Shown here piece after piece: positions 202 to 17,529 of a DNA stretch of 64,000 nt. Position 1 is the first letter of the stretch. Each line of letters opens with the position of its first letter. The translations under genes were made by a program, and so were the position numbers. The stretch comes from Sphingomonadales bacterium. GTDB taxonomy: Bacteria > Pseudomonadota > Alphaproteobacteria > Sphingomonadales > Sphingomonadaceae. Below the pieces are notes generated by a model. It had not been told where the DNA came from, searched no databases, and was given only the letters and a program-made list of their open reading frames with translations. The stretch spans positions 1 to 64,000 of the forward strand of contig JAACPW010000016.1 of NCBI GenBank assembly GCA_009995225.1. Reading direction: 5' to 3'.

Positions 202-780
202 CTAGGTGTGATGCGCCATAATTCTTTGGATAGCTGCGCGGCTGGTGCCATACTCGCTGGCGAGTTCGCCATAGGACGCGCCTTGCGCCTTGCGGGTGCG
301 AACTTCCTCTTTCTGTGCCTCTGTCAGCTTGGAGCGCCGCCCGAGCGTCTTACCTTGCGCGCGGGCGCGGCTAAGTCCGCTTTGGGTTCTCTCAATCAAT
401 AGATCGCGCTCAAACTCAGCCACGGCGCTGATAACGCCCATAGTCATTTTGCCCGCTGGTGAAGTCAGGTCTACGCCGCCAAGGGCGAGGCAATGCACCC
501 GCACTCCGATAGCCGCTAAGGCTTCGACCGTGGCGCGCACATCCATGGCATTGCGCCCGAGCCTATCCAGCTTGGTAACGATTAAGATGTCGCCCGATTC
601 CAGCCGATCCACCAGCTTAGCGAATTCGGGGCGCTGCATTGCAGCCACAGAGCCTGAGACTGTCTCAGTGATTGTGCGACGGGCATCGATGGCAAACCCA
701 GCCGCTGCGATATCGCGAACTTGGTTCTCGGCAACCTGATCGCTGGTGCTTACGCGGCAATATGCGAAAATGCGGGACAT
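202..780 (-). CDS. Serine recombinase (resolvase/invertase family)
   Basis: A 192-residue small serine recombinase that would perform site-specific strand exchange through a 5'-phosphoserine intermediate. The N-terminus [12 protein letters not shown] carries the nucleophile Ser; the conserved blocks TKLDRLGRN and [12 protein letters not shown] lie in the catalytic and E-helix regions. The last 45 or so residues form a helix-turn-helix of the Hin/Tn3 TnpR type. Length is normal for TnpR/Hin-like enzymes. No transposase gene is visible beside it, so it may be an orphan resolvase of a plasmid-like or genomic-island element. Just upstream (793-897) lie repeated half-sites that could be its recombination and autoregulatory site. 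It is followed by a strong terminator. Whether it resolves or inverts cannot be told from the sequence. Confidence 0.93.
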
Positions 781-2060: not shown

Positions 2061-2567
2061 TTGAACGTGGCGGTGGCGATCGATATTCCCAGCCGAGCAA
2101 TCGTCATCACCGTATTTTGGGAGGCGAGCATATATCACTATCGGGAGTGCGGCCTTCGCAACGTTTGGCTGGCGAACGGCTTTGATAAGCACGACACCCC
2201 TTACGGGAAGGGTATAGCCATCCACGACGTGGAGGGCCTACACCGCGCAATCGCGCATGGAATTGTCAGCAAGGGCGGAAAACTCACCGGCACTGAACTG
2301 CGCTTTTTGCGTCAGGAAATGGGCCTTAGCCAAGCCAAGCTGGCGACCATGCTTGGCAATGAGGCTCAGACAGTCGCCCTATGGGAGAAACGAGGCGGAC
2401 AGCCGAAGATGGCCGACCGCTTCATCCGTGCGATTTATCGGGAGCTCAATGAAGGCAACGCGCAAATCCGCGAAATGATCGAGCGGCTGGTAGACTCCGA
2501 CCTGGAAGAGTCCGACGCGCGCATCACGCTTTCGCAGGACGATACCGGGTGGAAGGTCGCCGCCTAA
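2061..2567 (+). CDS. XRE/MqsA-type antitoxin with altered start
   Basis: The protein carries an MqsA-like N-terminal domain (YHYRECGLRNVWLANGF) and a helix-turn-helix (TELRFLRQEMGLSQAKLATM ... ALWEK), the arrangement of antitoxins that accompany DUF4258 toxins. Homologues usually begin at M-Y-H-Y; here that codon is ATA (2130-2132), preceded by a good GGGAGG ribosome site. Initiation therefore either uses ATA or comes from TTG 2061 or GTG 2067/2073, which would add the toxin's C-terminal strands to the antitoxin. No stop separates the two reading frames. The pair appears to be decaying, although the antitoxin body itself is intact. Confidence 0.65.
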   Translation: MNVAVAIDIPSRAIVITVFWEASIYHYRECGLRNVWLANGFDKHDTPYGKGIAIHDVEGLHRAIAHGIVSKGGKLTGTELRFLRQEMGLSQAKLATMLGNEAQTVALWEKRGGQPKMADRFIRAIYRELNEGNAQIREMIERLVDSDLEESDARITLSQDDTGWKVAA

Positions 2568-2894: not shown

Positions 2895-3340
2895 GTGGGG
2901 CGAACTTCGTGGGCCGATGGTGAGATACTTTTGGCGAGCTCTGCCGAACGCGTCAGAGACAGCCTGATAGCGCGAGCGAACCAGCATGGAAACGCAAGCT
3001 ACGTCAGCGAATGGCTGGAGGCAGAGCTTCTAGTGCGGAAAATTCGCCTGCTCGACCTTACCCTTGCTGAATTCTGCCAGCACGCCGAGACCGCCCGCGC
3101 CCTCTTTTTCCGAGAGCCTGACGACGAAGCCTTGCGAGGGCTAATTTTATCGAACATGCGCCTCGCAGGATCGGCGCTTATGTGGGGGTTTCCGCACTGC
3201 TTGTTCGGGAGCGAAGAGGCGACACTCGCGTACTTCGGCCAGATCGCCCCGCACGAACGCGCAGCGCTCTTCGCAATCTTGCCGGAAACGATAAGCTCCA
3301 AAGATCGCGTGACACCAAGGATTTCTATGACGGCTTCGGC
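2895..3340 (+). CDS. Hypothetical protein, probably truncated
   Basis: A GTG-initiated frame gives about 148 residues rich in helices (for example VSEWLEAELLVRKIRLLDLT) before it runs out of frame into the monooxygenase remnant. The formal ORF continues to 3863 but the distal part is a different protein. Around 3295-3350 another frame (TKDFYDGFGWYIAG) reads more naturally, hinting at a frameshift or a rearrangement junction. I do not recognise the family; it may not be a functional gene. Confidence 0.3.
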
Positions 3341-3351
3341 TGGTACATCGC

Positions 3352-3863
3352 TGGACGGTCAGAGGGGAAGCTGGCGCAGGCCTGCTCGACACCTACCAGT
3401 GCGAGCGCGCACCGCACCTGCGCGCCACGATCGACATGGCAGTTATGATGGGACGGATGGTGTGCACCACCAGCCGGGTCCGTGCTGCAATCCGCGATCT
3501 GCAATTCACGCTGGCGCGATTGCTGGGCAAGCTCCCCGATGCCCCGCCCGCCTACCTGCCGATTGCCACTGGCGCGATCCTATCCGGCACGCCGGGGCGG
3601 GATGCTATTTACCGCAGGCCCGCGCCATATGCGGCGCGCGGATCGACGATCTGCTTGGCCCGGCCGCATGGCTTGCCACCCGCGATGACTTGCTGTCGGA
3701 CAAACTTGCGCCCTTTGCAGACCCGCTGCGCGAATGGCTTGATGGTCATGGGGTGCAGGCGGTGCTGGTGCGTCCCGAACGCTATGTGTTCGGCGCTGGC
3801 GATGCCATCATGCTGCGCGAGCGTTGGGCGGCAGTGACAACCGCACCGCCCGCCCGCGTCTGA
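3352..3863 (+). pseudogene. C-terminal remnant of MhpA-like FAD monooxygenase
   Basis: From about 3352 a frame reads VRGEAGAGLLDTYQCERAPH followed by RATIDMAVMMGRMVC, the typical linker and C-terminal region of MhpA-type (3-hydroxyphenyl)propionate hydroxylases. At about 3597 the frame shifts by one base: CCGGGGCGG would need one more G to continue from GAILSGTPG into AGCYLPQARAI. The normal C-terminus (FADPLREWLDGHGVQAVLVR, then PERYVFGAG) follows up to a stop at 3863. The FAD-binding N-terminal two thirds are absent, so this is a stump left by deletion or insertion at about 3350. Confidence 0.7.
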
Positions 3864-3878
3864 TCCCCGGCACCCAAG

Positions 3879-6818
3879 CTAATCGATCAGAACGAAGGGC
3901 GCCCAGATCTCGGGGCGATCCGCGCCTGGCAGGCCGCTGTCACGCCGCAAACGCCCAATCGCGTGGTGCAGCGCCTGCGCCTTGTCGCCGTGCTGGCGGT
4001 AGTGGCGCAGCATCTCGACCGCGACATAGGCCGCCACATCGTCGCGCACCTGCCAATGGGTCGCCAACACGCTACCCCCTCCGGCAAAGCGGAAGGCGCT
4101 GACCAGACCCGCAAAGGCGGGCACCCCGCCCTCGAACCCGGCGGCGCTGTCGCAGGCGGTGAGGATCACCCAATCCGCGACCAGATCGAGCCGCGCAATC
4201 TCGCTCGCGGTCAGCACCCCGTCGCCCTCACCCTGTTGCGGGCGCGACAGGATCAATGCAGGCTCCGCAATCCCCTCCAGCTCTCCGGCGACAAGGCCGT
4301 GGGTGGCAAACAGCAACACCTCGGCGCGGGCTACGCCTGGATCGGCAAGATTGGCTTCGCTGGCCGCGTCTCCAAGAAACACTTGGGCAGAGCCACTGGC
4401 GAACTCACGCGCAATGGTTCGCGCCTCGTTGGCGGAACCGGGCAGCCGGGGAAGCTGCGCCAGCCGAGTGGCATCGACGCCGCCGCGCTCAAAATAAGCG
4501 GCAGGACTGAACGTCGCGGACCCGGCAGCCTCGCCCGACTCGCCCGATTGGCCCGCGTTGAAGGGCGCGGGCGCAGCAAAGGCGACCAGCCCGCCCCCAC
4601 GCGGGCGTTTGGCGCGATCCTCCCGACCCAGCGCGGCGATGTTCGCCAGCGCGAAGCGATCCGCCAACCATTCCGTCGCCCTGCCCTGACCGCCTTCGTC
4701 CAGCAGCAGCGCCCCGAACGGCAGCGAGGCGAGGGGACCGCCTGCCAAAATCCGCAGCGTTTCAACCTCATCCAATGCCATGCGAGCCTCGGGAGGGAGC
4801 AAGACGGCGGCCAGCTGGGCCGAAGCGGCCGCATCGAAGGCCATCGTCGCCGCTCCGTCTCGCACCTTAGAGGCGAGCGCGATCAGATCCGCGCGCGGCA
4901 GATCGAGCCTGCGGACGATCGTCTGATCGGCGGTCACCAACAGGCTGTACGCCCCATCATAGGCCGGGGCGAACGCCAGCAGCGCCTCCCCCTTGCCAAG
5001 CTGCGCTCGGATCGCAGCAATGCTGGCATCGCCGGGATCCAGCATCTGTCCGGCCGCAGCATCGCGCGCGCTCAGGGCGGCCAGCGTCGCTGCGCGTACC
5101 GCATCGGCCTGCACCAGCGTGTCACGCGCCGCATCGGCCGCGGTGCCATCGGCCAGCGCGCGCAGAAACGCCCGGTCAGCCGCATCCACCGCCGCATCGG
5201 CCTGCTGGAGCGCGCGCAGTTCGGCCGCGATCTCGGGATCGTCCGCCGCCAGCCGCTCGGCCCGAAAGGCGGTCGCCTGGGCCAATCCCGATCCGGTCGC
5301 CAGCGCCATGGCCTGCGCCATCAGATCGGGCACAGCGCAATCCACCGCGATTTCCATCACCAGATCGAGCGCCGCACGCTGTTCGGTCTCGAATGTCCCC
5401 GCCTGCCCCCGCGCCCGGTCGCGTCCGAGAAAGGCGAGCATCGTGCGCGCCTCGTCAACCGCAGCCTGCGGCCGGCCCGCCACCACGCTTTGCGCCCGGA
5501 TATCGACCAGTCGCGCATGGCGCAGCGCAAAGGCGCCGCTCTTCTCCGTCTCGAGCAACCGGGCATAATCGCGCGCGGCAATGCGCGCCGCTTCCACGCT
5601 GTCCCCATTGCGGATCAAGGCGCGCACCAGATCCGGCCCGATCCGCTTGGCGATATCGGTATCGACCGAGTTCGTCTCCATGCGCGCATCGACCGCGCGC
5701 AGCTGTGCCAGCGCCTCGGCCCCGCGGCCCAACGCGAAGGTGCCTTGCGCGGCATAGGCCTGCGAACCCAGCCCGAAGGGACTGCCCTCCCCCTGATACT
5801 TGGCGAAGATCGGCGCAGCTTCCGCGAACAATGGCACCGCGTCGGCGTAGCGTTCGCGCTGATGGTAGATCGTCGCCAGCAGATGGATTCCATAGCCGAA
5901 GAACAGGCTGTCAGGCCCTTCGTGCTGGCGTTTGAGTTCCAGACTGCGGGCCAGATAGCCGGTCGCTTCGATCGGGCGTCCGCTGCGGGACAGGACAATC
6001 GCAAGCATTTCCAGCGCGCGCGAATAGGTGGGGTGGGCGGAGTCGATATGCTGCACCGCCCGCTCGACCGCGATCCGCGCATAGCGTTCGGCCTCGTCCA
6101 CCTGCCCGGCCCGGCGCAGCGTGCCGGCGTAGCCGTAGTAGGAACTGATGGTGTCGGGATCGTTCGGCCCGAGAAATCCCTCGCGGGTGTCCAGGCTGGC
6201 GCGTTGGTAGCGCAATGCATCGTCGGTCCGGCTGAGTTGCAGCAGCACTTGGGAAAGCGAGAATTCGAGGTTGGACCGGGCGACCACCGCCCCGCGGCCG
6301 ATCTCATCTGGCGCAAGCGCGGCGAAACTCTCCATATAGGCTGCATAGCCGGTTTCGAGCGATGCGATCGCCGCGTCGGCTTCACCTGCTTGCGCAAACA
6401 ATGTGCCGAGCAACGCTACCCCCTCGGCGCGCACCACGAGCGTTTCGGGATCGCGATCGGGCAGCGCGGCCAGCCCCCGTTCGACCGCGACACGGGCATC
6501 GGCGTTGCGTCCAAGGACGTAGAGCTGCGAGGCGACGCGGATGTCCGCTCGCGCCACTTCGGGGTGATCGGGTGCAAACAGGCGCGCGGCGGCAGCGACC
6601 TTCTCCCACGCGTCGATAATGCGCTGCGCGCCGTTCGCATCAGGGGTGGTTTCCGCAAATAAGGCTTCGGCCTGCTCTCGAAGAAGTGCCACCTGCGGTT
6701 CGGATGGTGTTTGCGCAGCCAAAGCCCCCACGGGCGCGCTGCCCAATGCCAGTGCCAACGCGCAGACCCTGGCCGTGACAGCGCCACCAAAGCGACGGTT
6801 ACCGCAATATCCGGTCAT
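3879..6818 (-). CDS. Exported TPR-CHAT domain protein
   Basis: 979 residues. An N-terminal signal peptide (ARVCALALALGSAPVGALAA) directs export. Residues about 40-420 contain TPR-like helix pairs, and the C-terminal 300 or so residues form a CHAT domain (caspase HetF associated with TPRs). The catalytic dyad is present: His840 in FATHG and Cys889 in LTACDSA; the following FRFAGGGSVLATHW and GDKAQALHHAI segments are typical. CHAT proteins are clan CD cysteine proteases or protease-like scaffolds and often accompany secreted adhesins. It is the last gene of the leftward locus, 39 bp after the lipoprotein gene, with a GGGGGGAAAGC ribosome site. The substrate is unknown; the FecR-repeat protein upstream is the obvious candidate. 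Confidence 0.9.
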   Translation of the reverse strand: MTGYCGNRRFGGAVTARVCALALALGSAPVGALAAQTPSEPQVALLREQAEALFAETTPDANGAQRIIDAWEKVAAAARLFAPDHPEVARADIRVASQLYVLGRNADARVAVERGLAALPDRDPETLVVRAEGVALLGTLFAQAGEADAAIASLETGYAAYMESFAALAPDEIGRGAVVARSNLEFSLSQVLLQLSRTDDALRYQRASLDTREGFLGPNDPDTISSYYGYAGTLRRAGQVDEAERYARIAVERAVQHIDSAHPTYSRALEMLAIVLSRSGRPIEATGYLARSLELKRQHEGPDSLFFGYGIHLLATIYHQRERYADAVPLFAEAAPIFAKYQGEGSPFGLGSQAYAAQGTFALGRGAEALAQLRAVDARMETNSVDTDIAKRIGPDLVRALIRNGDSVEAARIAARDYARLLETEKSGAFALRHARLVDIRAQSVVAGRPQAAVDEARTMLAFLGRDRARGQAGTFETEQRAALDLVMEIAVDCAVPDLMAQAMALATGSGLAQATAFRAERLAADDPEIAAELRALQQADAAVDAADRAFLRALADGTAADAARDTLVQADAVRAATLAALSARDAAAGQMLDPGDASIAAIRAQLGKGEALLAFAPAYDGAYSLLVTADQTIVRRLDLPRADLIALASKVRDGAATMAFDAAASAQLAAVLLPPEARMALDEVETLRILAGGPLASLPFGALLLDEGGQGRATEWLADRFALANIAALGREDRAKRPRGGGLVAFAAPAPFNAGQSGESGEAAGSATFSPAAYFERGGVDATRLAQLPRLPGSANEARTIAREFASGSAQVFLGDAASEANLADPGVARAEVLLFATHGLVAGELEGIAEPALILSRPQQGEGDGVLTASEIARLDLVADWVILTACDSAAGFEGGVPAFAGLVSAFRFAGGGSVLATHWQVRDDVAAYVAVEMLRHYRQHGDKAQALHHAIGRLRRDSGLPGADRPEIWAPFVLID

Positions 6819-6857
6819 GTGCTTTCCCCCCCAACTGGTGGGAGCATAAGGGCGGAT

Positions 6858-7463
6858 TTAGTCGAATACGATGTAAAATTCCGATATTGCCGGCCCAATA
6901 TTGACGATTTCGATACTGTGCCGCTGGGTGTAGAGCGGCACCCACAGGCATTTGATCGGATCATCGCTGGTCTTGCACACCTGACGATCCGACTGGTCAC
7001 GCACCACCAGCTGCGGTGCCGGGCCGCGCGAAACCTTGAGCACGATCTGCGCCGATCGGCCGCCTAGGAAGGTCTGGTTAAGCTGCGTCGTCGCTCCGGG
7101 ATTGAGCGCAGCGGACCGATAGGCCGGGCCCAACGCGCGCCCACGCATCGGGCGCGCATCGCCGGGCAATCGAGCCATCCAGCGTTGCATTGCCGCGTCG
7201 TCCTGTTCGGTCTGCGGCTTCGGGCCGAGCTGTTCGAGCCGCTGCGCCGCCAGCGCCAGAGCGGTGGCATCCTGCGCCCGTTCGGCCCGATCGGCCATCA
7301 GCAACGCGTCGGCCAGCCGCTCCGCCCGGCTTGGAAGCGCGGCGCCCGGAACGGGCGCGGCCGGTGCCTGCCCTGCATCGCCCGCCCCCGGCGCAGCGCA
7401 GCCCACCGCAAGCGCACAAAGCGTCGCCATCACCCCTGCGCGAAGCCCATACCCCGCAATCAT
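6858..7463 (-). CDS. Small lipoprotein of the CHAT locus
   Basis: 201 residues. The N-terminus has a lipobox (CALAVGC-AAP), so it should be a lipoprotein. A low-complexity Ala/Pro stretch leads to a helical part (about 45-95) and a C-terminal beta-rich domain ending in ISEFYIVFD, with two cysteines (QVCKTSDDPIKCLW) that may form a disulfide. The start codon overlaps the stop of the kinase gene by 4 bp, so it is translationally coupled to the two-component pair and cotranscribed with the CHAT gene. It could be a sensory or assembly partner. No family recognised. Confidence 0.8.
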   Translation of the reverse strand: MIAGYGLRAGVMATLCALAVGCAAPGAGDAGQAPAAPVPGAALPSRAERLADALLMADRAERAQDATALALAAQRLEQLGPKPQTEQDDAAMQRWMARLPGDARPMRGRALGPAYRSAALNPGATTQLNQTFLGGRSAQIVLKVSRGPAPQLVVRDQSDRQVCKTSDDPIKCLWVPLYTQRHSIEIVNIGPAISEFYIVFD

Positions 7464-8812
7464 GCTGCGGCCGCGATGCGAAACACCGCGCCTCCCAATC
7501 CGGTGGTCTCTCGCTCCTCCAGCGTCAGGGACAGGCCGTGCCGCTCGGCAATGGCGTGCGCCAGCGCCAGCCCCAGGCCGCTGCCCGAAGTTTCCTCGCC
7601 GCGCAGCCGCCCGCGATAGAACCGTTCAAAGATGCGCGCCCGATCGCGCGGGTCGATCCCAGGCCCGTCATCGGCCACCACCAGAACAGGCCCCCGCTCC
7701 AGCGTGATCGCAATCTGGCCGCCGCGGGGGACGTATTTGAGGGCGTTGTCGAGCATGTTCGTCATCAGCCTTCCCAATTGTCGTTCGTCGCCATTGATGA
7801 TCACGTCCGGCGCGATCGTCCAGCGCAGTTCCAGCCCGGCTTCCTCGGCGCTACCGGCGTAAAGCTCGCAGATGCCCGTTACCAACCCGCTGAGATTGAC
7901 CGGCACCAGCCCACTGCGATCGCCGCGATTAGCCTTGCTCGCGGCGATATCGAGCAGGGATTCGAGCGTCTGCACGATCCGCCGGATTTCGCCGCGCGCT
8001 TCTGCCAGCCGCTCGGCAATTGCGGTGTCGGGCTTTTGTGCGAGCGCTTTCACCAACCGGTTGTCGAGGTGCGATAGCGGCGTTCGGATTTCGTGGGCGA
8101 GCTGTTCGGATGTGTCCTTGTAGGCCGCCAGCAGATCATTCACCCGCGCCAGCGCCGCGCCGCTATGCGCGGTCAATTCGTCGATCTCGTCCCCGTCGAT
8201 CCGCCCGGTGGCGGCGAGCCCTGCGCCATCCTGCGGTTCGCGAAAGGCCAGGTTGATCCGCCCGATCCGGCGCTGCAGGCCAAGCGCAGCGAAGCGCCCG
8301 AGCAGCGCCACCAGCCCGATGAACACCGCGCCCCCGCCCGCAAAGGCCATCGCGATGCCTGACAGCACCGGCGTTTCGATATCGATGCCGCGGGCGACCA
8401 CCAGCCGCAAATCCGGGCCAAGCTGGACCGCGCGGGCAAAGCCTTTGGAATTGGCGCCAATCGCGATGATCCCGCTTTCCGACACGGTGGGATCCAGCGC
8501 CGGCCATGTCGTCAGATCGCCGGCGATCACCCGGCCGCTGTCATCCGCCAGCAGGTAGTGCGGTGCCCCGCCTTCCATCGGGGTCAGCGCGATACGGTCG
8601 GCGATGCGCGCTTCCAGCTCGACCCTCCCGCCGGTGGCATAGATATCGGCAAGCCCGGCAAGGTCGACATCGACTTCAGCCTGCGCCGCCTGCTGCAAGG
8701 TCGTGCTCACCGTCTGGTGCGTGAGCCACCACAGGCCCGCCAGCAAGACCAGCGAAAGCACAATCGCACCCGCCACCAGGCGCGAAAAAATGGAACGGCG
8801 CGCTTCGATCAC
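7460..8812 (-). CDS. Sensor histidine kinase
   Basis: 450 residues. TM helix 1 at about 11-30, an extracytoplasmic sensor region at 31-150, TM helix 2 at about 151-175, then a HAMP-like linker, the H-box EQLAHEIRTPL with phospho-acceptor His240, and a HATPase domain with N-box (NMLDNALKYV), G1 (DDGPGID) and G2 (GSGLGLALA). All catalytic motifs are intact. Its start overlaps the stop of the response-regulator gene (ATGA) and its stop overlaps the lipoprotein gene. The signal is unknown; the context suggests control of the envelope system around it. Confidence 0.95.
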   Translation of the reverse strand: MIEARRSIFSRLVAGAIVLSLVLLAGLWWLTHQTVSTTLQQAAQAEVDVDLAGLADIYATGGRVELEARIADRIALTPMEGGAPHYLLADDSGRVIAGDLTTWPALDPTVSESGIIAIGANSKGFARAVQLGPDLRLVVARGIDIETPVLSGIAMAFAGGGAVFIGLVALLGRFAALGLQRRIGRINLAFREPQDGAGLAATGRIDGDEIDELTAHSGAALARVNDLLAAYKDTSEQLAHEIRTPLSHLDNRLVKALAQKPDTAIAERLAEARGEIRRIVQTLESLLDIAASKANRGDRSGLVPVNLSGLVTGICELYAGSAEEAGLELRWTIAPDVIINGDERQLGRLMTNMLDNALKYVPRGGQIAITLERGPVLVVADDGPGIDPRDRARIFERFYRGRLRGEETSGSGLGLALAHAIAERHGLSLTLEERETTGLGGAVFRIAAAA

Positions 8813-9489
8813 GGCGTTCCATCGAGCAGGCGATAGCCCGATCCCAAAATCGTCTCCAGCGCCGGCCGATCAAAGCCATCCTCAAGCTTGCGGCGCAGCC
8901 TCCCGATATTGACATCCACAACGTTGGTCTGGGGATCGAAGTCCATCTTCCACACATGGCGCAGCAACATCTCGCGCGTCACGACCTCACCGGCATTCTC
9001 CATGAAATAACGAAACAATTCGAACTCCTTGGGGCTGAGCGCAAGGTGACGATTGTTGCGGAAGGCCGTGCGCGCTTTCACATGACATTCGAACGCGCCA
9101 TAGAGGATCACGGCGGAATGTTCGCGCCCCGTGGCACGGCGGTGCAGTGCCCTGAGCCGGGCAACCAGCTCCTCCGGTTCGAACGGCTTGGCAAGGTAAT
9201 CGTCAGCCCCGCCATCCAGCCCATCGGCGCGATCGCTGCTTCGGCCGAGCGCCGAAAGGATCAGGATCGGCGTGCCAATGCCGCCTTCGCGCAGGCGGCG
9301 GGTGATCGTCAATCCGTCGATATCGCCGAGCATCCGGTCAAGGATGATGACATCAAATGGCTCCAGCCCGGCGCGCAGCAGCGCGGCGCTGCCATTGTCT
9401 TCCCACACCAGCACATCACCACTGGCGCCGAGGATCTCCCCCACCGCTGCCGCAGAGCGCGGATCATCCTCGACATAGAGGATCCTCAT
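8809..9489 (-). CDS. OmpR/PhoB-family response regulator
   Basis: 226 residues from MRILYVEDDP. The receiver domain has the acidic pair E-D-D, phospho-acceptor Asp51 (IILDRMLGD), Thr/Ser in LILSA and Lys in LAKPFEPEEL. The C-terminal winged helix (LSPKEFELFRYF ... NVVDVNIGRLRRKLE ... LGSGYRLL) is of the OmpR type. I start it at 9489 although the frame is open further upstream, because the receiver fold begins there. The partner kinase follows with a 4-bp overlap. Likely targets are the two promoters that share a 28-bp motif in this locus. Confidence 0.95.
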   Translation of the reverse strand: MRILYVEDDPRSAAAVGEILGASGDVLVWEDNGSAALLRAGLEPFDVIILDRMLGDIDGLTITRRLREGGIGTPILILSALGRSSDRADGLDGGADDYLAKPFEPEELVARLRALHRRATGREHSAVILYGAFECHVKARTAFRNNRHLALSPKEFELFRYFMENAGEVVTREMLLRHVWKMDFDPQTNVVDVNIGRLRRKLEDGFDRPALETILGSGYRLLDGTP

Positions 9490-9610
9490 GAATGCTGTTT
9501 CCCACCTGACGAAACCTGGCCCATCAACCCGGTGTCTCCCCTTAATTGTCGTGCTGCCACCGCTCGCCCAAGGGTGCAAGCGATGGCAGGAGGCGAGACA
9601 AGGCGTCCGC

Positions 9611-10492
9611 TCAGTTAATGCTTTCGACCGATACCCAGCCCAGCGTGCCGAAATTGTCCTTCGCTTCGATAAACAGGCCTTCGCGCTTGCCGGTCGGGAT
9701 AAGCGTGGTGCCCACCCGCAGGTTGCGCAGCACCTTGGCGCTGGCAGACGGCGTTTCGAGCATTGCCGTGGCGGCCGCGACGGTTGCCATGTCGTTGTCA
9801 CCGGCGCCGCCAGAGGTGGGAGCGGCGGCGATGGTGGCCTTTTGGGCGACCAACTGATTGAAGGCGATTACGAACGCCTCGACCAGCATCTTGCCGTCCT
9901 TGCTGGAGCCGTAGCCCGCCGCCGCAGCGCCCGCATTCCATGCGCCTGCACCGCCGAAGCTTAATGTGCTTTTCTTGACCACACCTTGTCCCGCGGCGAT
10001 CGCCTGCCCGCTGGCCGGGTTTAGCAACTTGATCCCGGCCGCAAGCCGCTTTTTCTTTCCGCCCAGACCGCCAAACATGCCGAGCACGGCGCCTGCCCCC
10101 GGCACGCTGCTGAGCAGCGAGCCTGCCGCGCCCGAACTCACCAGCCCCTGCATCGCTGCAGACTTGGCGACCTCGATCGACTGGTCAACTTCCTCACTGT
10201 CGCCGGCAACCACGTTCATCAGGAAATCGGCCGCGTCACCGCTGGCGGGGCTGTGCGGGGTAAAGCAGCCGGATTCGACCGCGAGTGAATTGATCAGTTC
10301 GCGAGGGCTGCCGAGCCCGAACTCGGACCACCCCTGTGTATCGCCTTCCACCACCGCGATCGAGCCGAGGCTTTCGGTACAGGTGGCCAGTTTGACCGCT
10401 TCGTCGCCGCCCTTGGCCTGCGCCGGGGCCGCAACCAGCGCGCCCGAGGCCAGCGACGCCACTACAAGCGCGTGGAAATTCGTCTTCGTCAT
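9611..10492 (-). CDS. Exported protein with SH3-like C-terminus
   Basis: 293 residues starting at MTKTNFHALV, preceded by GGGGAGATTGACA. A signal peptide ends at APAQA-KGG. The N-terminal part (ESLGSIAVVEGDTQGWSEFG) resembles the CsgG/LpoB-like fold used by envelope assembly factors. The middle is Gly/Ala-rich with a basic GGKKKR patch, and the last 60 residues (KVLRNLRVGTTLIPTGKREG, then FIEAKDNFGTLGWVSVESI) look like a bacterial SH3 domain, a common peptidoglycan-binding module. It lies between the giant FecR-repeat gene and the regulator gene. Its upstream region carries one copy of the shared 28-bp motif. The CsgG-like assignment is tentative. Confidence 0.75.
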   Translation of the reverse strand: MTKTNFHALVVASLASGALVAAPAQAKGGDEAVKLATCTESLGSIAVVEGDTQGWSEFGLGSPRELINSLAVESGCFTPHSPASGDAADFLMNVVAGDSEEVDQSIEVAKSAAMQGLVSSGAAGSLLSSVPGAGAVLGMFGGLGGKKKRLAAGIKLLNPASGQAIAAGQGVVKKSTLSFGGAGAWNAGAAAAGYGSSKDGKMLVEAFVIAFNQLVAQKATIAAAPTSGGAGDNDMATVAAATAMLETPSASAKVLRNLRVGTTLIPTGKREGLFIEAKDNFGTLGWVSVESIN

Positions 10493-10563
10493 TGTCAATC
10501 TCCCCATTGCGATCAATGGTGCGATGATGCCGCCGGTGCCCTCGCGCAGCCACACACATGCAC

Positions 10564-10591
10564 TGTCATCGGCATGACAAGTGCTGTTAGG
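10564..10591 (-). promoter_or_regulatory. Shared 28-bp motif, copy 1
   Basis: An inverted repeat TGTCAT-CGGC-ATGACA with a conserved 3' flank, 72 bp upstream of the start codon at 10492. It matches the sequence at 17502-17529 at 23 of 28 positions (blocks TGTCA, CG, CATGACAA, TGC and GTTA in register). It is a candidate operator or activator site, probably for the response regulator encoded in the same locus. Confidence 0.6.
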
Positions 10592-10596
10592 TCGCG

Positions 10597-13500
10597 TCAG
10601 CGCCGCTCAGCCATGCCGCCATCGAAGGTGATCATCCCGCCCATCAGCTGTTCGGCCTGCTTGACTGCCGCTTGCCGGGCCAACGCATTGCCGCGCGCCG
10701 TCCCTTCGCCCGCTGTCAGCCCTGGTGGGAGCAGCGAAAGTTCCTGCCCGCCTATCGACGCCGGGCCACCTTGCGGTGAGGCGGTGCCCGTCCCGCCCCA
10801 GCGGTTCATGTCGATCCCTGCGATCGTGCCGCTGCTGGGAGCAACCGACACGGCCCCGCCGCCCGCGCCGCCAGCGTAAGGGTTGGTCGAGGGCTGCGTG
10901 CCGGAAGTGGTTGCACGCAATGCCGCAGTGCCGATTACGGCAATGTCCGCAGCAAACCGGATATCGTACTGGACTCCGATTTCGGTACCGCCGACCCCGG
11001 CGAGAAAGCCCGTCCATTCGACAGAACACGCCCCGGCGCAGGCACCGCCGGTCACACTGCCATTGGCCGAACGCCCCGTGAACCCGCCATTGACCAGCGA
11101 CAGCTCGCTGGTGGCAAGATTGGCAACACCCCCAGTGGTCTGCGCCACATAGCTGTTGGAATTGTAATCGAAACCGAGCGAGATGCCGACCTTGGGGCTC
11201 GCGCCAAACTGCACCGCGGCCGAGCCCGATGTGAGTATGCCCGGAGCCACACTGCCGTCCACTGCCGTAGGCCTTGTGCCCCCGACGAGGGTGTAGTCGA
11301 CCCTCCCGCCGGTCGGAAGGTTGGTAGACGGCGTGCCGATGATGATATGATAGCCGCCGTTGGCATTTATACCGAAGGGCGGGGGCGGGCCGAAACGGCT
11401 GGGAACAACCCCGCCATTGCTCCAGCGCGACCACCGCACCGCGCCCGATGTCGTCCGGCCGATATCGGTGTTGCTTGCTGCGGCAAAGTTCGTGCCCACC
11501 GGGGCGATCCGGTCAAACCAGCCATTTCTGCCGCCAATCTCGATCACCCGGCCATCAGCATCGGTCTTGTAGCCGAAGCTGCCGGGCGTATTCTGCACTG
11601 TGTCGAGCGAATTGGTCCGGCCCGGATTGGCGGTGCTGAAATCGAGTGACACGAGATTGCCCTGACTGACGAACAGGTCGGTCGTGACAGTGGCGCTCAA
11701 CCGGTTGCCGGTCACCGCGCTGACTGGCGGGCCGGTCAGCGCGCCATTGCCGAAAATCGCCGCGCCGTTGAGGTTTTTGAGATTGCTCTGCCCCGTGGCG
11801 TTGTAGGTCAGGCCCAACTGACTGATATCAGCCCCAGCGAAATAGCCTGCAAACTGGATCGTGCAATTGGCATCGCAGCTGTTGTCGCTGGTGGTGATGC
11901 CATCGCCAAGAATGCTGAAATTGACATTGCGTCCCTGCGTTACGCGGAACTCCGATGTGCTTTGTTGGGCGTTGGCGATGCCGCCCTGGGTGGAGAAACC
12001 GTAGACAAAATCACCACCTGCCTTTGGCATGGTGATGCTGCCTTCCATCGCCACGCGGTTGGTTGCACCAAACAGCACCGCCATATCGGCCTGGAACTGT
12101 CCCGGAGCAAGCGACCCATCGGCAATCGTCGGCGCGGTGGCCGCGATCAGATCGTAATCGATGCGGCCTGTTGTCGGGATGGCAAAGCCGCCCGTGGTTG
12201 GCCCGGCGAACAGATAATGCAGGCCCTGCGTGGCCGACAAAGTCGTGTTTTCGGACGGATCTGCCGAAACATAGATCCCGTTGCTCCAACGGCCGATGGC
12301 GAAGCGGGCATTGGTCGACACATCAACGGCGGTGGCTGTGCCGATGCTGCGCGGGCGGAAGCTTTCGAGAATCGCGGTGATCGCGCCATTGCTATCGGAA
12401 GTTATCCCATCGGCGCTGAATCCGTTGAGGCCGGTTGTCGGAGCGCGCAGGTTGTAATTGATGCCGGTGGTGGCCGTGAATGGCGTTTGATTGGCAAGGA
12501 TCAACGGCGTGCCGCCGGTATTGCCGCCACCTGTATCGCCGCCACCTGTATCGCCGCCACCTATGGTGTCAGCACGCCCGAAGATCGCTGCACCGCTGAT
12601 GTTGTCTGACCCGCTGAGTGATGCGAGATAGGTTACTCCCAAACGGTTGGCCGTTGCATCACCAAGGAACCCTTGAAAGTCGATTGATCCGGATCGCGGC
12701 GTCGCTTCATTTGTCGAACCGCTAGCCGAAAAATTGATCCCGCCGTCAATGATGACAAGCGAGCTTGGATTGCCATTCGGGTTAACCGATCCGCCCGGAG
12801 TGGAAAAGGAGTAAACAAACCCGCTGTCGCCGGGCATAGTGATCGTGCCGTCAATGCCAAAGCGCGCTCTTGGCCCTGAAAATTCGACCGCAAGGTTGGC
12901 CGCGAAAGTGCCCGGTGCGATTGCGCCGGAAAACAATGTGGGCCGCGTCGCGCCAAGCAGATCATATTCGATAACGCCGCTCGGCAAAGTCAGCGCGCCG
13001 GTGATGTCGCGTGCCAGCAGGTAATGAAAACCTTGGTTGGCCGAAAGCGTAAGATCGCGCGCACGGTTTTTGAAGGTTCCATCGGTGAAACGGCCGATCA
13101 GCAGGTTGCGATCGCCGGAGATCTCCTGCACCGAAGCAGCGCCTGTCTCGCTGATAAGACCGCCATAGCTTTGTAATGCACCGTTGGCGGCAATACCGGC
13201 ATCTGCAAAGCCGTTCAGTCGGGCGAGCAAGGGCCTTGCATTCACGCTTTGGCCGTCAAAACCGTTTCCAGCATAGGCAATGTTGGGCTGCGGGCCGTCA
13301 AATCCTCCCGAGTAGACAAGCGTTGGGTTGTTGCCCGGATCGGTCGGCCCACCTCCGCCATCGCTGCCCGGAAGCCCGACAAACATATCGGGGTTGCCGC
13401 CGCCCTGGAGGAACGCGAAGTATTCGACAAAGAAAGCGTTCAGATCGGCAAATCCGCCCAACCCGCCCTGAAGCGCAGCGAGCGCGGCCAGATAGGCTTC

Positions 13501-16068
13501 GAGAATGGAAAGATCGAGCGCAGTATATTCGCTCGGCAACCCGCCATCTGCGAGGAAAGCGAAATAGGCATTCAGCGCCGCGACGTAATCGGCATAAACC
13601 GGCAGCCCCGCAAAATTCGCAGGATTACCGCCGCCCGACACGAACGCGGCATAGGCGGCAAAGAACCCGTTGAGATCGCCGAACCCGGCCAGACCGCCCT
13701 GCGCCCCAGCCAGCGCGTCAAGATAGGCGTTGAGCGTCGCCTGATCGAGCACGGTGTAATCGCTCGGTAGGCCGCCTCCCGATAGGAATGCGAAATACGC
13801 GTTCAGCGCCGCAACATATTGGCTATAGACCGGCAAGCCCGCAAACCCGTCGGGCGTGCCGCCTGCCGAAAGAAAGGCGAAATAGCGTGTCAGCAGATCG
13901 GCGTTGTCGCCCACCAAGGCGGCGAACTGTCCCGAGCGGGTCAGCGCGTCGATGAAGCCTTGCAACTGCGCCAGATCCTGGGCGGTGTAATCGGTTGGCA
14001 ATCCCCCGCCTTGCAGGAACAACGCATAGGCATTGAGCGCGGCGGCAAAAGCGGGGAAATCGGGCGCGACCGGCAAGCCGGCAAACAGGTCGGGATTGGC
14101 CCCGCTCGCAAGATAGACCGCATAGTCGCGGTAGAAGGACGCGCTGTCTCCAAGGAAGCGCGACGTGGCCCCGGCTGCTTCAAGGGCGGCGATATAGGCG
14201 CGGACCTGATCGAGCGTCAGCAACGTATAGCCCGATGGTACGCCGCCAGCGTTCAAGAAGTCGAAGAACGTCCGCAAGTCGACAGCATAGCCCGCAAACA
14301 CGTTGGCGGGCAGTCCGGTAAATCCATCAATGCTGCCGCCCCCGGCCACAAAGCTCGCAAAAGCCGAAAAGAACGCGGCGCGATCCCCCAGGAAACGGTC
14401 GAGCGCACCGGCCTGCTGCAATTGCAGCACCCAGGCCTGCAACACCGCTATATCGGTGCCGCTGAACTCCGACGGCCGCCGGCCAGTGGAAAGGAAGGCG
14501 AAATAGGCGTCGAGCTGCGCGGCATAGCCAGCAAACACATTGGCAGGCAGCCCCGTAAAACCATCAACCTCACCGCCTGCGCGCAGGAACGCGAGGTAAT
14601 CGGCATAAAAGCCCGCCTTCTCGCCCAGCACGGTCTGGAGCAGGCCAGTGTTGGCCAGCGTTTCAAGATAGGCCCGCAAGGTAGCCTGATCGATCGCGGT
14701 GTACGCGCTCGGGCGGCGGCCGCTCGCGAGGAAGGCGAAGTAATCGCCCAGGGCGGTCTCGTACTGCGCCGCGAAAGCCAGTCCGCCATTGGCGAGGAAG
14801 GCTTCGGCCAGCGCGCGATCGGTCGCGCCCAGTTGCGCCACCAGCCCGCTTTCGCGCAGGAAAGCAATGGTTTGCGCAAGCGCCGCTTGGCTTGCACCAG
14901 TGAAAGCCGTCGGATCGCCCCCGCCCCGAACAAAGGCGAAATAGGCGGATGTCAGGTCGGTGAAAGACAGCGCAAAGCCATCGCGATTGCCGCCACTGGC
15001 AAGGAAGGCGAGGTAGGCGTCGGCCAACACCCGGTCACGCGCCGCCAGGTCAGAGAATGCACCAGTACGGCGAATGTAAGAAAGATAGGCGTCGATATTG
15101 TCCGGGCCTGACGAAGCAAAGCCACTGGGCAATCCGCCTGCACGGATGAGATCGAGGTAGCTGGCAACAAAGCCGCTATAGGCGCCCAGAAATTCGCTGC
15201 CCGCGCCGCCGCCGGCCAGAAACCGCAGATAGGCACGAATGATGTCGGCTTGCGCCTGAGGAAAAGGCGTGCCGCCGTAGCTGTCTTCGATCTGCGCAGC
15301 GGCTGATACCAGCAGCGCAAGATCACCGCTCGGGAACGTGTCGAGCGCAGGGTTGCCGGCCACAGCCTCGATCCGGCGGGCGGCAGCGATGATGTCGCTC
15401 GATGCACCAGCCGTGGCAAGCTGATCGCCGAACCCTGTGGGAATGCCGTTGAGCGCCGCTGCAACGGGGCCAGCGTCGCTCCCGATCGGGACCACGCGGC
15501 CCGCTTGTGCAGGGCCAGCAGCGGCCAGCGCGGCAGGTTGCGCAATCGCATTATTGGCAATGACGCGGCGCACCCCGCCCTGCCCGCGCGCCCGCCACAT
15601 TTCTCCGGCACCAAAACGCTCCAGCGCGCCAGCGCGGCCAATTTGCAAAGCGCCGGTCAGCGCATGGCCGCTCGCCTCGCCCGTCCCGCGCACAGTGAAA
15701 TTGCTCGCAGACCCTACGCCTGCCACGCGGCCTTCAAGGCCTTCGGGCATCCGCACCACCACTTCGCCACTCGGACCCGATGTGACCGTGATCGCGCCTT
15801 CGTAAAGGTCGATCGAACCGTCCTCGTTCAGACGGTATTCCGCTGCATCGACAATCGATACCGTGCCCCCGCCGGTGAGCGCAATCTGGGTCAGCCCAGC
15901 ACGCTGATCGATGCGCTGGCCGGTCGCCGGCTGCGCTTCGCTGGTGGTGAACAGCAGCTGGTTGGCCGCCAGTGGTGCGCTCAGCGCAAGGCCCGAAGCG
16001 CCGACCAGCAGCAGCCGGGCGGAACGGGCGAAGGTCTTCGCGGGCGAAATGGTCAGGATAGCAGTCAT
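10597..16068 (-). CDS. Giant FecR-domain repeat protein with TbpB-like modules
   Basis: 1823 residues from MTAILTISPAKTF, preceded by GGAGGCCACC. An N-terminal export signal is followed by a FecR-type beta domain (about 35-200: QIALTGGGTVSIVDAAEYRL, then DLYEGAITVTSGPSG). Residues about 270-895 hold seven or eight divergent units of about 88 residues with the pattern YFAFL-x-GGG-x-P-x-x-YT and AGLP-x-x. After a Gly/Pro linker come three homologous beta-rich modules of about 200-250 residues, each with IGR(F/W)-x-(D/N)G, a YHxLxG-like core, YDLxxATxPT and a GxLxGxxxxxxGLTY end, resembling TbpB-like beta-barrel domains. No membrane anchor for FecR-type signalling is seen, so it is probably a secreted or surface protein. 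It follows the TPR-barrel gene by 23 bp. Confidence 0.88.
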   Translation of the reverse strand: MTAILTISPAKTFARSARLLLVGASGLALSAPLAANQLLFTTSEAQPATGQRIDQRAGLTQIALTGGGTVSIVDAAEYRLNEDGSIDLYEGAITVTSGPSGEVVVRMPEGLEGRVAGVGSASNFTVRGTGEASGHALTGALQIGRAGALERFGAGEMWRARGQGGVRRVIANNAIAQPAALAAAGPAQAGRVVPIGSDAGPVAAALNGIPTGFGDQLATAGASSDIIAAARRIEAVAGNPALDTFPSGDLALLVSAAAQIEDSYGGTPFPQAQADIIRAYLRFLAGGGAGSEFLGAYSGFVASYLDLIRAGGLPSGFASSGPDNIDAYLSYIRRTGAFSDLAARDRVLADAYLAFLASGGNRDGFALSFTDLTSAYFAFVRGGGDPTAFTGASQAALAQTIAFLRESGLVAQLGATDRALAEAFLANGGLAFAAQYETALGDYFAFLASGRRPSAYTAIDQATLRAYLETLANTGLLQTVLGEKAGFYADYLAFLRAGGEVDGFTGLPANVFAGYAAQLDAYFAFLSTGRRPSEFSGTDIAVLQAWVLQLQQAGALDRFLGDRAAFFSAFASFVAGGGSIDGFTGLPANVFAGYAVDLRTFFDFLNAGGVPSGYTLLTLDQVRAYIAALEAAGATSRFLGDSASFYRDYAVYLASGANPDLFAGLPVAPDFPAFAAALNAYALFLQGGGLPTDYTAQDLAQLQGFIDALTRSGQFAALVGDNADLLTRYFAFLSAGGTPDGFAGLPVYSQYVAALNAYFAFLSGGGLPSDYTVLDQATLNAYLDALAGAQGGLAGFGDLNGFFAAYAAFVSGGGNPANFAGLPVYADYVAALNAYFAFLADGGLPSEYTALDLSILEAYLAALAALQGGLGGFADLNAFFVEYFAFLQGGGNPDMFVGLPGSDGGGGPTDPGNNPTLVYSGGFDGPQPNIAYAGNGFDGQSVNARPLLARLNGFADAGIAANGALQSYGGLISETGAASVQEISGDRNLLIGRFTDGTFKNRARDLTLSANQGFHYLLARDITGALTLPSGVIEYDLLGATRPTLFSGAIAPGTFAANLAVEFSGPRARFGIDGTITMPGDSGFVYSFSTPGGSVNPNGNPSSLVIIDGGINFSASGSTNEATPRSGSIDFQGFLGDATANRLGVTYLASLSGSDNISGAAIFGRADTIGGGDTGGGDTGGGNTGGTPLILANQTPFTATTGINYNLRAPTTGLNGFSADGITSDSNGAITAILESFRPRSIGTATAVDVSTNARFAIGRWSNGIYVSADPSENTTLSATQGLHYLFAGPTTGGFAIPTTGRIDYDLIAATAPTIADGSLAPGQFQADMAVLFGATNRVAMEGSITMPKAGGDFVYGFSTQGGIANAQQSTSEFRVTQGRNVNFSILGDGITTSDNSCDANCTIQFAGYFAGADISQLGLTYNATGQSNLKNLNGAAIFGNGALTGPPVSAVTGNRLSATVTTDLFVSQGNLVSLDFSTANPGRTNSLDTVQNTPGSFGYKTDADGRVIEIGGRNGWFDRIAPVGTNFAAASNTDIGRTTSGAVRWSRWSNGGVVPSRFGPPPPFGINANGGYHIIIGTPSTNLPTGGRVDYTLVGGTRPTAVDGSVAPGILTSGSAAVQFGASPKVGISLGFDYNSNSYVAQTTGGVANLATSELSLVNGGFTGRSANGSVTGGACAGACSVEWTGFLAGVGGTEIGVQYDIRFAADIAVIGTAALRATTSGTQPSTNPYAGGAGGGAVSVAPSSGTIAGIDMNRWGGTGTASPQGGPASIGGQELSLLPPGLTAGEGTARGNALARQAAVKQAEQLMGGMITFDGGMAERR
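12523..12566. repeat. 15-bp in-frame tandem repeat
   Basis: About three copies of a 15-bp unit (CGCCGCCACCTGTAT-like) encode a GGGDT linker repeated between beta modules 1 and 2 of the giant protein. Units of whole codons can expand or contract without breaking the frame. Confidence 0.8.
13381..15250. repeat. Region encoding about 88-residue protein repeats
   Basis: This segment of the giant gene encodes successive units with recurring phrases such as NAYFAFLSGGGLPSDYT, AYFAFLADGGLPSEYT and YFAFLASGRRPSAYT, each paired with a second half ending F-x-GLP. The rightmost (N-terminal) units are most diverged and the leftmost pair (13390-13830) the most alike, suggesting recent duplication at the C-terminal end of the array. 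Confidence 0.85.
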
Positions 16069-16091
16069 GTGGTGGCCTCCCCGGATGCCAA

Positions 16092-17423
16092 TCAAAATTC
16101 GAAACGCGCGCCGACCGATGCGGTCCATCGCTCGAAATCGAACAACGCGATATTGCTCCAGTTGCGCGAATAGGTGGCGGTGGGCTGAAGGAAGAGACGA
16201 TCCGTGATGGCGACCTTCAATCCTGCCGTCAGGTCGAGCCGCTCGTCCTCACGCTTGACCAGGAACAGCGGATCGGGCGCATCATGACGGCGCAGATCGA
16301 AGCCGATCCCGCCAACCACCGCGATCGTCCGTGCCAGCGGCACTTCGGCACCCAGATTGGCCCCTATGAAATCGAACGACAGGTGATCACCTGCCTGGCG
16401 CCGGGTCTTTTCGGTGCCGCCATTGATGTTCGCAGCGAAGAATTTGCCGACGAAACCCGTCCCGATGGAAAGGCGATCCGCATCGCGCAAGGGATCGCCA
16501 TTGAAGTCCAGCCTGTTCCACTGACCCGAAACCGTCAGTGCCTTTCCGCCTGCCAGTGGCTTGGTGTATTGCGTCGTGACCCCGTATGAGGTCCGGAAGC
16601 CCGCATCATCAAGCCAGAATTGCTGCACCTGTCCCGACAGCGAGATCACGTCGTCATTGGCGAAGCTGTGGGCGTAACCCGCTGTCCCGGTCAGCGCGGC
16701 CTGATCGAACATCGCAGTGTCGAAATTGTCGCGCCAATTGCCCAGCACCGACGCGAACAGGCGATCCTGCCGCCCGATTGCTGTCACGCCGGAGATGCCG
16801 GCGGTGATGTCGTAGAATTCGTCGGACTGCGCCACCGCCGCGCCGCCAAGCTGGCCGGGCCCAAGAAAGCTGAACAGCGGAATGACAATCGAATTCAGCT
16901 CGGTCGCGGTGTTGATGTTGCTATCATATCCCACCCGCGCATCAACAAAGCCGCTGACGTCCGAACCGCCGCCTGCGATCTGCCTGTCGAACTGGCGCAC
17001 GAACCCGGTAAAACGCTGACGCACCGGATCGGGCAGGCTGGGATCGTCGACCACGGTCGCAAACTGTTCGCGCGCGGTGTCGATATCGCCCGCCAGCGCA
17101 AAAGCGCGCGCCAGTTCGGCCCGCGCGGCGGCGTTGTCCGGCTGGACGGCAAGCACGCGCTGAAAAGCGATGATTGCATCGCCAAATCTGCCCGAATCCA
17201 GCGCCGCAATGCCCAAGGCGAAATCGAACCCCGGATCGCCCGCACGCTGCGGCACCTGACTGGAGAGCTGCCGGTATTCCGCTTCGGCCGCAGCCTTGGA
17301 AGTTGCGCTGTCCGGCTGGGGCTCATTCTGGGCGAGCGCAGGCGTGCCAATAGCGGTTGCCGCCAGAAAAGACGACGCCCCCAGCATCGCTGCACGCAGG
17401 CGGTATGCAGATGTCCGTTTCAC
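16092..17423 (-). CDS. TPR plus outer-membrane beta-barrel protein (Slam/DUF560-like)
   Basis: 443 residues. A signal peptide (ATAIGTPALAQ) is followed by a TPR region (about 45-145: FALGIAALDSGRFGDAIIAF ... NAAARAELARAFALAGDIDT) and a C-terminal region of alternating beta strands beginning FVDARVGYDSNIN and ending in the typical outer-membrane signature GARFEF. This two-part architecture is that of surface lipoprotein assembly modifiers (DUF560), which carry TbpB-like lipoproteins across the outer membrane. The next gene encodes a protein with TbpB-like modules, which supports a transporter and cargo relation by inference. It is the first gene of the leftward unit and has the second copy of the shared motif upstream. 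Confidence 0.75.
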   Translation of the reverse strand: MKRTSAYRLRAAMLGASSFLAATAIGTPALAQNEPQPDSATSKAAAEAEYRQLSSQVPQRAGDPGFDFALGIAALDSGRFGDAIIAFQRVLAVQPDNAAARAELARAFALAGDIDTAREQFATVVDDPSLPDPVRQRFTGFVRQFDRQIAGGGSDVSGFVDARVGYDSNINTATELNSIVIPLFSFLGPGQLGGAAVAQSDEFYDITAGISGVTAIGRQDRLFASVLGNWRDNFDTAMFDQAALTGTAGYAHSFANDDVISLSGQVQQFWLDDAGFRTSYGVTTQYTKPLAGGKALTVSGQWNRLDFNGDPLRDADRLSIGTGFVGKFFAANINGGTEKTRRQAGDHLSFDFIGANLGAEVPLARTIAVVGGIGFDLRRHDAPDPLFLVKREDERLDLTAGLKVAITDRLFLQPTATYSRNWSNIALFDFERWTASVGARFEF

Positions 17424-17501
17424 TGTAAGCCAGCCCCCAAGTCCGTTCCGATCAGACTTGTGGCATGGCGCAGAGTGTCAGGCGGTCACATTGACAAGCG
17501 T

Positions 17502-17529
17502 TGTCAGCGTCATGACAAATGCCGTTATG
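17502..17529 (-). promoter_or_regulatory. Shared 28-bp motif, copy 2
   Basis: Sits 79 bp upstream of the start at 17423 and is 23/28 identical to 10564-10591. The surrounding bases contain more half-sites: TGACAA-GCG-TTGTCA at 17492-17506 is a perfect inverted repeat, and TGTCA recurs at 17476-17480. The cluster looks like several binding sites for a dimeric regulator. Confidence 0.6.

Follow-up and report, generated by a model that had tools for sequence, protein, structure and literature searches.

What does a run of seven leftward genes, headed by an outer-membrane barrel gene and the gene for a giant exported protein, encode in a bacterium of the Sphingomonadales (Sphingomonadaceae), and do its members belong to one system? 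The locus occupies positions 3,879 to 17,529 of the window, a stretch of 64,000 nucleotides from contig JAACPW010000016.1 (assembly GCA_009995225.1). A sequence-only reading had proposed that the barrel exports the giant, that an exported CHAT protein processes it and that a kinase pair controls it, an interpretation that is partly supported by the analysis reported here. The locus probably represents a separate branch within the Slam/type 11 secretion system (T11SS), with a cargo and a regulon of its own, regulated by a dedicated two-component switch. All seven genes are present where they had first been read, in the order barrel, giant, SH3-like protein, response regulator (RR), histidine kinase (HK), lipoprotein and CHAT protein, and the arrangement is conserved in relatives; a Pfam scan of the window proteins found clear HK and RR domains and, in the barrel protein, tetratricopeptide repeats (TPRs). 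The features, all on the minus strand, are as follows.

17489..17529, minus: promoter box 1, before the barrel and giant genes; direct repeats TAACGG, TTGTCA, CTGACA, TTGTCA; a training site
16092..17423, minus: Slam/T11SS-like outer-membrane barrel, 443 amino acids, TPRs and a predicted 14-stranded barrel (Pfam, structure model, hhalign)
10597..16068, minus: giant exported protein, 1823 amino acids from the ATG (start 16068), made up of a FecR-like domain, an alpha-repeat array, three TbpB-like modules and a C-terminal tail
15559..15963, minus: giant, FecR-like N-terminal beta domain
13369..15270, minus: giant, alpha-helical repeat array, 9–10 units by profile
12559..13257, minus: giant, TbpB-like handle-barrel module 1 (profile and structure model)
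11740..12504, minus: giant, TbpB-like module 2 (match to the module 1 profile)
10903..11715, minus: giant, TbpB-like module 3 (match to the module 1 profile)
10597..10902, minus: giant, C-terminal tail beyond the last module
10551..10591, minus: promoter box 2, before the run SH3-RR-HK-lipoprotein-CHAT; outside the training set; score 40.2 against a null maximum of 12.6
9611 to about 10492, minus: exported SH3-domain protein, its core tentatively CsgG-like
8809..9489, minus: OmpR/PhoB-type RR, start 9489 (domain match)
7460..8812, minus: sensor HK (domain match)
6858..7463, minus: putative lipoprotein downstream of the HK
3879..6818, minus: exported TPR-CHAT protein, a putative accessory (CHAT domain E = 3.9e-43)

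The kinship with Slam that had been suspected for the barrel was recovered through profiles and orthologues rather than from its own sequence. Aligned with five sphingomonad Slams, the barrel reached 99.8% in hhalign (E = 5.7e-29), with an identity to the fetched sphingomonad Slams of about 27–29%, and PF04575 (DUF560) was over its cut-off in three of four orthologues scanned (P0228, P0239, L078) and narrowly under it in the fourth (L098, 21.2 of 22 bits); the PF04575 label is carried by 7 of the 120 barrel relatives listed. In the three sphingomonad Slam loci for which both genes were scanned, the Slam passes PF04575 and adjoins a PF01298 cargo. The structure model (m91620d34d4e6; predicted local distance difference test, pLDDT, 84.2) combines TPR helices with 14 strands, so that Slam homology, N-terminal TPRs and a predicted 14-stranded barrel, the outer-membrane hallmarks of T11SS, are found together, and on homology and model the barrel is best described as a distant Slam/T11SS protein. 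The barrel might instead be an unrelated porin-like channel, with the giant surfacing by another route or staying periplasmic: the window protein itself has no PF04575 match in the Pfam scan, Foldseek returned assorted barrels with no named Slam among the best 50 matches, and against PDB sequences the barrel profile found mostly TPR proteins, plus BcsC. This is very unlikely in view of the orthologues over the PF04575 cut-off, the hhalign result, the 14 strands and the tandem arrangement with TbpB-like cargo seen at all 58 loci. The TpsB proteins of two-partner secretion are defined by POTRA domains and a 16-stranded barrel; that identity was rejected, as no POTRA family was among the Pfam matches and the model has 14 strands. 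In the available portion of PMC8406197, 16-stranded PgaA-like members are excluded as against 14-stranded ones.

The adjoining giant has the features of a T11SS cargo at its C-terminal end. Module 1 is predicted to adopt a handle-barrel fold like the C-lobe of TbpB (structure model and fold search), and modules 2 and 3 are tied to TbpB through the module 1 profile, which bears out the three TbpB-like modules first read in the sequence. In the window giant a tail of ~100 amino acids follows the last module and ends in a QLMGGMITF-like motif, shared with several relatives and absent from giants that terminate at the last module. A putative Sec signal peptide was recognised by eye, a lipobox occurs in 11 of 120 giant relatives, and even with E values up to 0.1 the window giant has no Pfam match. 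The earlier description as a FecR-repeat protein held for the presence of a FecR-like domain, found in all 120 giants listed, but a fold search placed a FecR/PupR signalling-domain fold at the N-terminus, where it occurs once, and the repeats are alpha-helical, not FecR. These repeats were found by profiles, self-BLAST having reported none; their XerC-like match and PF02899 labels were attributed to chance or to a common helical bundle. A FecR regulator is an anti-sigma module with a cognate extracytoplasmic function sigma factor nearby, and this identity was rejected for the giant, in which no anti-sigma part was seen; none of the nine window genes scanned codes for a sigma factor.

Distribution and co-occurrence bind the barrel to the giant. 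Among 149 genomes of the family (the bacterium's own genome is included in this and the following genome counts), 8 hold a close barrel homologue (E < 1e-70) and 7, all of them among these 8, a clear giant (Fisher p = 2.9e-11, the genomes being related), and the barrel-giant set thus co-occurs beyond chance; an eighth giant match (G027, E = 2.8e-4) was left out of the count. The barrel was found in 9 of 61 genomes of the genus and 3 of 289 of the class, two of these outside the family, a patchy distribution. Barrel alignment A1, scanned against named genomes, yielded 63 loci. The giant gene follows the barrel on the same strand in each of the 58 loci whose sequence extends 1 kb or more downstream, and one of the five with less shows a giant start. 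Where the sequence reaches 8 kb or more downstream (52 loci), a cognate RR (a match over 150 bits) and HK are present in 41, the full trio of RR, HK and lipoprotein in 37, and the SH3 gene in 26. Pairwise distances correlated with those of the barrel for the giant N-terminus (r = 0.90, n = 58), SH3 protein (0.88, n = 31), HK (0.73, n = 45), RR (0.66, n = 46), CHAT (0.61, n = 23) and lipoprotein (0.60, n = 41), none of 2000 permutations being as high, though common descent by itself yields some correlation. On these correlations barrel, giant and SH3 protein form a tight group, to which RR, lipoprotein and CHAT are all more loosely tied. Taken together, Slam homology, the 14-strand model, the TbpB-like module and the conserved tandem order strengthen the proposal that the barrel exports the giant.

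Regulation by the kinase pair gains support from a promoter box shared within the locus that mostly occurs with the cognate RR. Aligning 11 barrel promoters revealed a block of TAACrGC, TTTGTCAT, CTGACA and TTGTCA, which by its sequence is likely an OmpR-type direct-repeat element and putative DNA site. A matrix built from these 11 sites was scanned over 68 loci at a cut-off of 13 bits (340 shuffled loci gave a top score of 12.6) and placed the box before 44 barrel, 27 SH3 and 8 RR genes, training sites included; it stands before 26 of 30 SH3 genes and 8 of 47 RR genes. No box was found at control starts, either in loci with a cognate RR (giant 0/46, HK 0/46, lipoprotein 0/42, CHAT 0/22) or in those without (giant 0/16, HK 0/6, lipoprotein 0/1, CHAT 0/9). 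Among non-training loci the box is present in 29 of 37 with a cognate RR vs 6 of 20 that lack one (p = 0.0006, though the loci are not independent), and the divergent RRs of L028, L070, L087 and L098 accompany no recognisable box. The half-sites TTGTCA/CTGACA, at a phase of about 10–11 bp, are presumably similar to a Pho box, and the locus RR is itself PhoB-like (profile match), so that PhoB, responding to phosphate starvation, might control the operon in place of the locus RR; this is decidedly unlikely given the association with the cognate RR and the mere three exact core matches genome-wide. The latter comprise both window sites and one on contig 7. With up to two mismatches the genome holds 17 sites, which hardly exceeds the 13 of a reversed control, and the weaker sites therefore carry no meaning; a stricter pattern found box 1 alone and, because it missed box 2, was unusable for counting targets genome-wide. 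The third exact core (L157, 5962–5977, minus strand) precedes a small exported protein, a possible further target. The H-box pattern is present in 45 of 48 HKs and the D-box pattern in 44 of 49 RRs.

SH3_3 was detected in 22 of 23 orthologues of the SH3 protein, the window protein (P0005) being below the curated cut-off. No orthologue matched the CsgG Pfam family (0/23); hhalign against CsgG gave 36.8% over 38 columns (controls ≤0.2%), from which a CsgG-like core is tentatively suggested. A lipobox-like pattern occurs in 29 of 45 lipoprotein relatives.

The position of CHAT is looser than had been claimed. Its peptidase domain is clear: His840 and Cys889 are as first read, and the catalytic His/Cys motif is present in 44 of 44 CHATs compared, partial CHATs having been left out. 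A CHAT gene stands near the barrel in 30 of the 52 loci that reach 8 kb or more downstream (25 in locus DNA, 5 more about 10–12 kb away), a raw frequency uncorrected for chance adjacency; in 21 no CHAT was found on the contig within 20 kb, a distance cut short by contig edges in L049, L057 and L095. Of the 27 loci lacking CHAT in locus DNA, all but L044 were checked genome-wide; 28 of 30 genomes searched hold a CHAT somewhere and 2, both from those 21 loci, have no CHAT match. On a tree, barrel-linked and unlinked CHATs interleave with at least 7 label changes, though with some clustering (17 of 500 shuffles gave as few), and CHAT was rejected as a phylogenetic partner, the linked CHATs forming no clade. 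In L034 the run RR-HK-lipoprotein-CHAT is found with neither barrel nor giant, and CHAT accompanies two-component genes without either in L101. Because of the interleaving and of this barrel-free run, CHAT is treated as a predicted accessory of the system. That it is instead a core part and the dedicated protease maturing the giant, as the sequence-only reading had it, draws on frequent adjacency, wide presence and the conserved motif, and is unlikely against the loci and genomes devoid of it, the tree, the absence of a box at CHAT starts and the loci L034 and L101. A second CHAT of the same genome (L114, G000:C22, 400–12915) follows a 2454-amino-acid MBG_2 protein and precedes a CHASE2-guanylate cyclase. 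Unlinked CHATs in L099, L108, L117 and L118 lie near a gene holding MSLLEARKTYKPFEYPWAY, which we take to be the ribonucleotide reductase small chain; the large chain was confirmed by Pfam in L108 only.

These observations suggest a route in which the giant would be exported by Sec and held in the periplasm, where the 14-stranded TPR barrel would recognise its C-terminal TbpB-like modules and pass them to the surface. The alpha-helical array could then form a long stalk or a binding face for any ligand, and the FecR-like domain may remain periplasmic as a plug or anchor. The HK-RR pair would switch on the barrel-giant and SH3-RR-HK operons via the shared box, perhaps with the lipoprotein as sensor partner, and CHAT, as an interchangeable accessory peptidase, could trim, release or clear stalled giant. 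The FecR domain could alternatively make the giant a surface-signalling device that reports ligand or assembly state through the envelope to the HK-lipoprotein pair, adhesion being secondary. Such a role fits the FecR/PupR fold in every giant listed and the presence of the RR, the HK and the lipoprotein side by side at 37 of 52 loci, but the window locus genes include no sigma factor and the domain persists in giants without a cognate two-component system (L066, L067, L068, L088), which leaves it fairly unlikely. Returning to the T11SS branch, a speculative extension, improbable as it stands though conceivable, is a closed loop in which the periplasmic FecR-like domain would be an assembly gauge read by lipoprotein and HK; these would tune barrel, giant and SH3 adaptor through the box, coupling secretion to need, and CHAT would clear stalled cargo. 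If true, it would be, to our knowledge, the first T11SS equipped with a feedback regulon of its own.

Beyond the CHAT gene, a chimeric open reading frame at 2895–3863 (plus strand) adjoins it and looks by eye like a decayed hydroxylase gene. A small gene pair at 1818–2057 and 2061–2567 (plus) presumably resembles a DUF4258-type toxin with an MqsA-type antitoxin, and at the window edge a recombinase-like gene at 202–780 (minus), which we assign to the serine recombinase/resolvase family, lies in a low-GC stretch (0.54).

Among known systems, the locus is like T11SS/Slam with TbpB, fHbp or HphA cargo in its TPRs, predicted 14-stranded barrel and adjoining handle-barrel cargo. It is unlike them in the low identity of its barrel to sphingomonad Slams (about 27–29%), in a very long cargo, usually without a lipobox, that carries FecR and alpha repeats, and in a promoter box tied to a dedicated two-component system. 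Sphingomonad cargo scanned in L127, L130 and L131 matches PF01298, whereas the giant matches no Pfam family. The FecR/PupR anti-sigma domain shares the fold of the giant N-terminus, without an anti-sigma part or adjoining sigma factor in the giant. At L114 a CHAT likewise directly adjoins a giant protein, but the giant is another, MBG-repeat one, beside a CHASE2-cyclase, and no barrel or two-component match was found among the reading frames scanned there. In the open-licence literature, the matches listed include no report of this architecture or box and none joining FecR or CHAT with Slam/T11SS. Sphingomonad T11SS members are mentioned in PMC12282271 and PMC8406197, the available portions of which do not describe this architecture, and FecR, CHAT and Erythrobacter have 0 occurrences in the main text of PMC12282271. 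As far as the available portion of that paper goes, its ‘Sphingomonas surface protein’ resembles the giant as a sphingomonad cargo with several TbpB beta-barrel domains and differs in its N-terminal Pro-Thr repeats, and the seven T11SS exporters verified before it all came from one animal-associated cluster. Beside these, the locus would add a divergent, mostly environmental T11SS branch that comes with its partner cargo at hand, a cargo of very large architecture, and with a candidate regulatory box, and in which export, regulation and the role of CHAT are each testable by single deletions in culturable sphingomonads.
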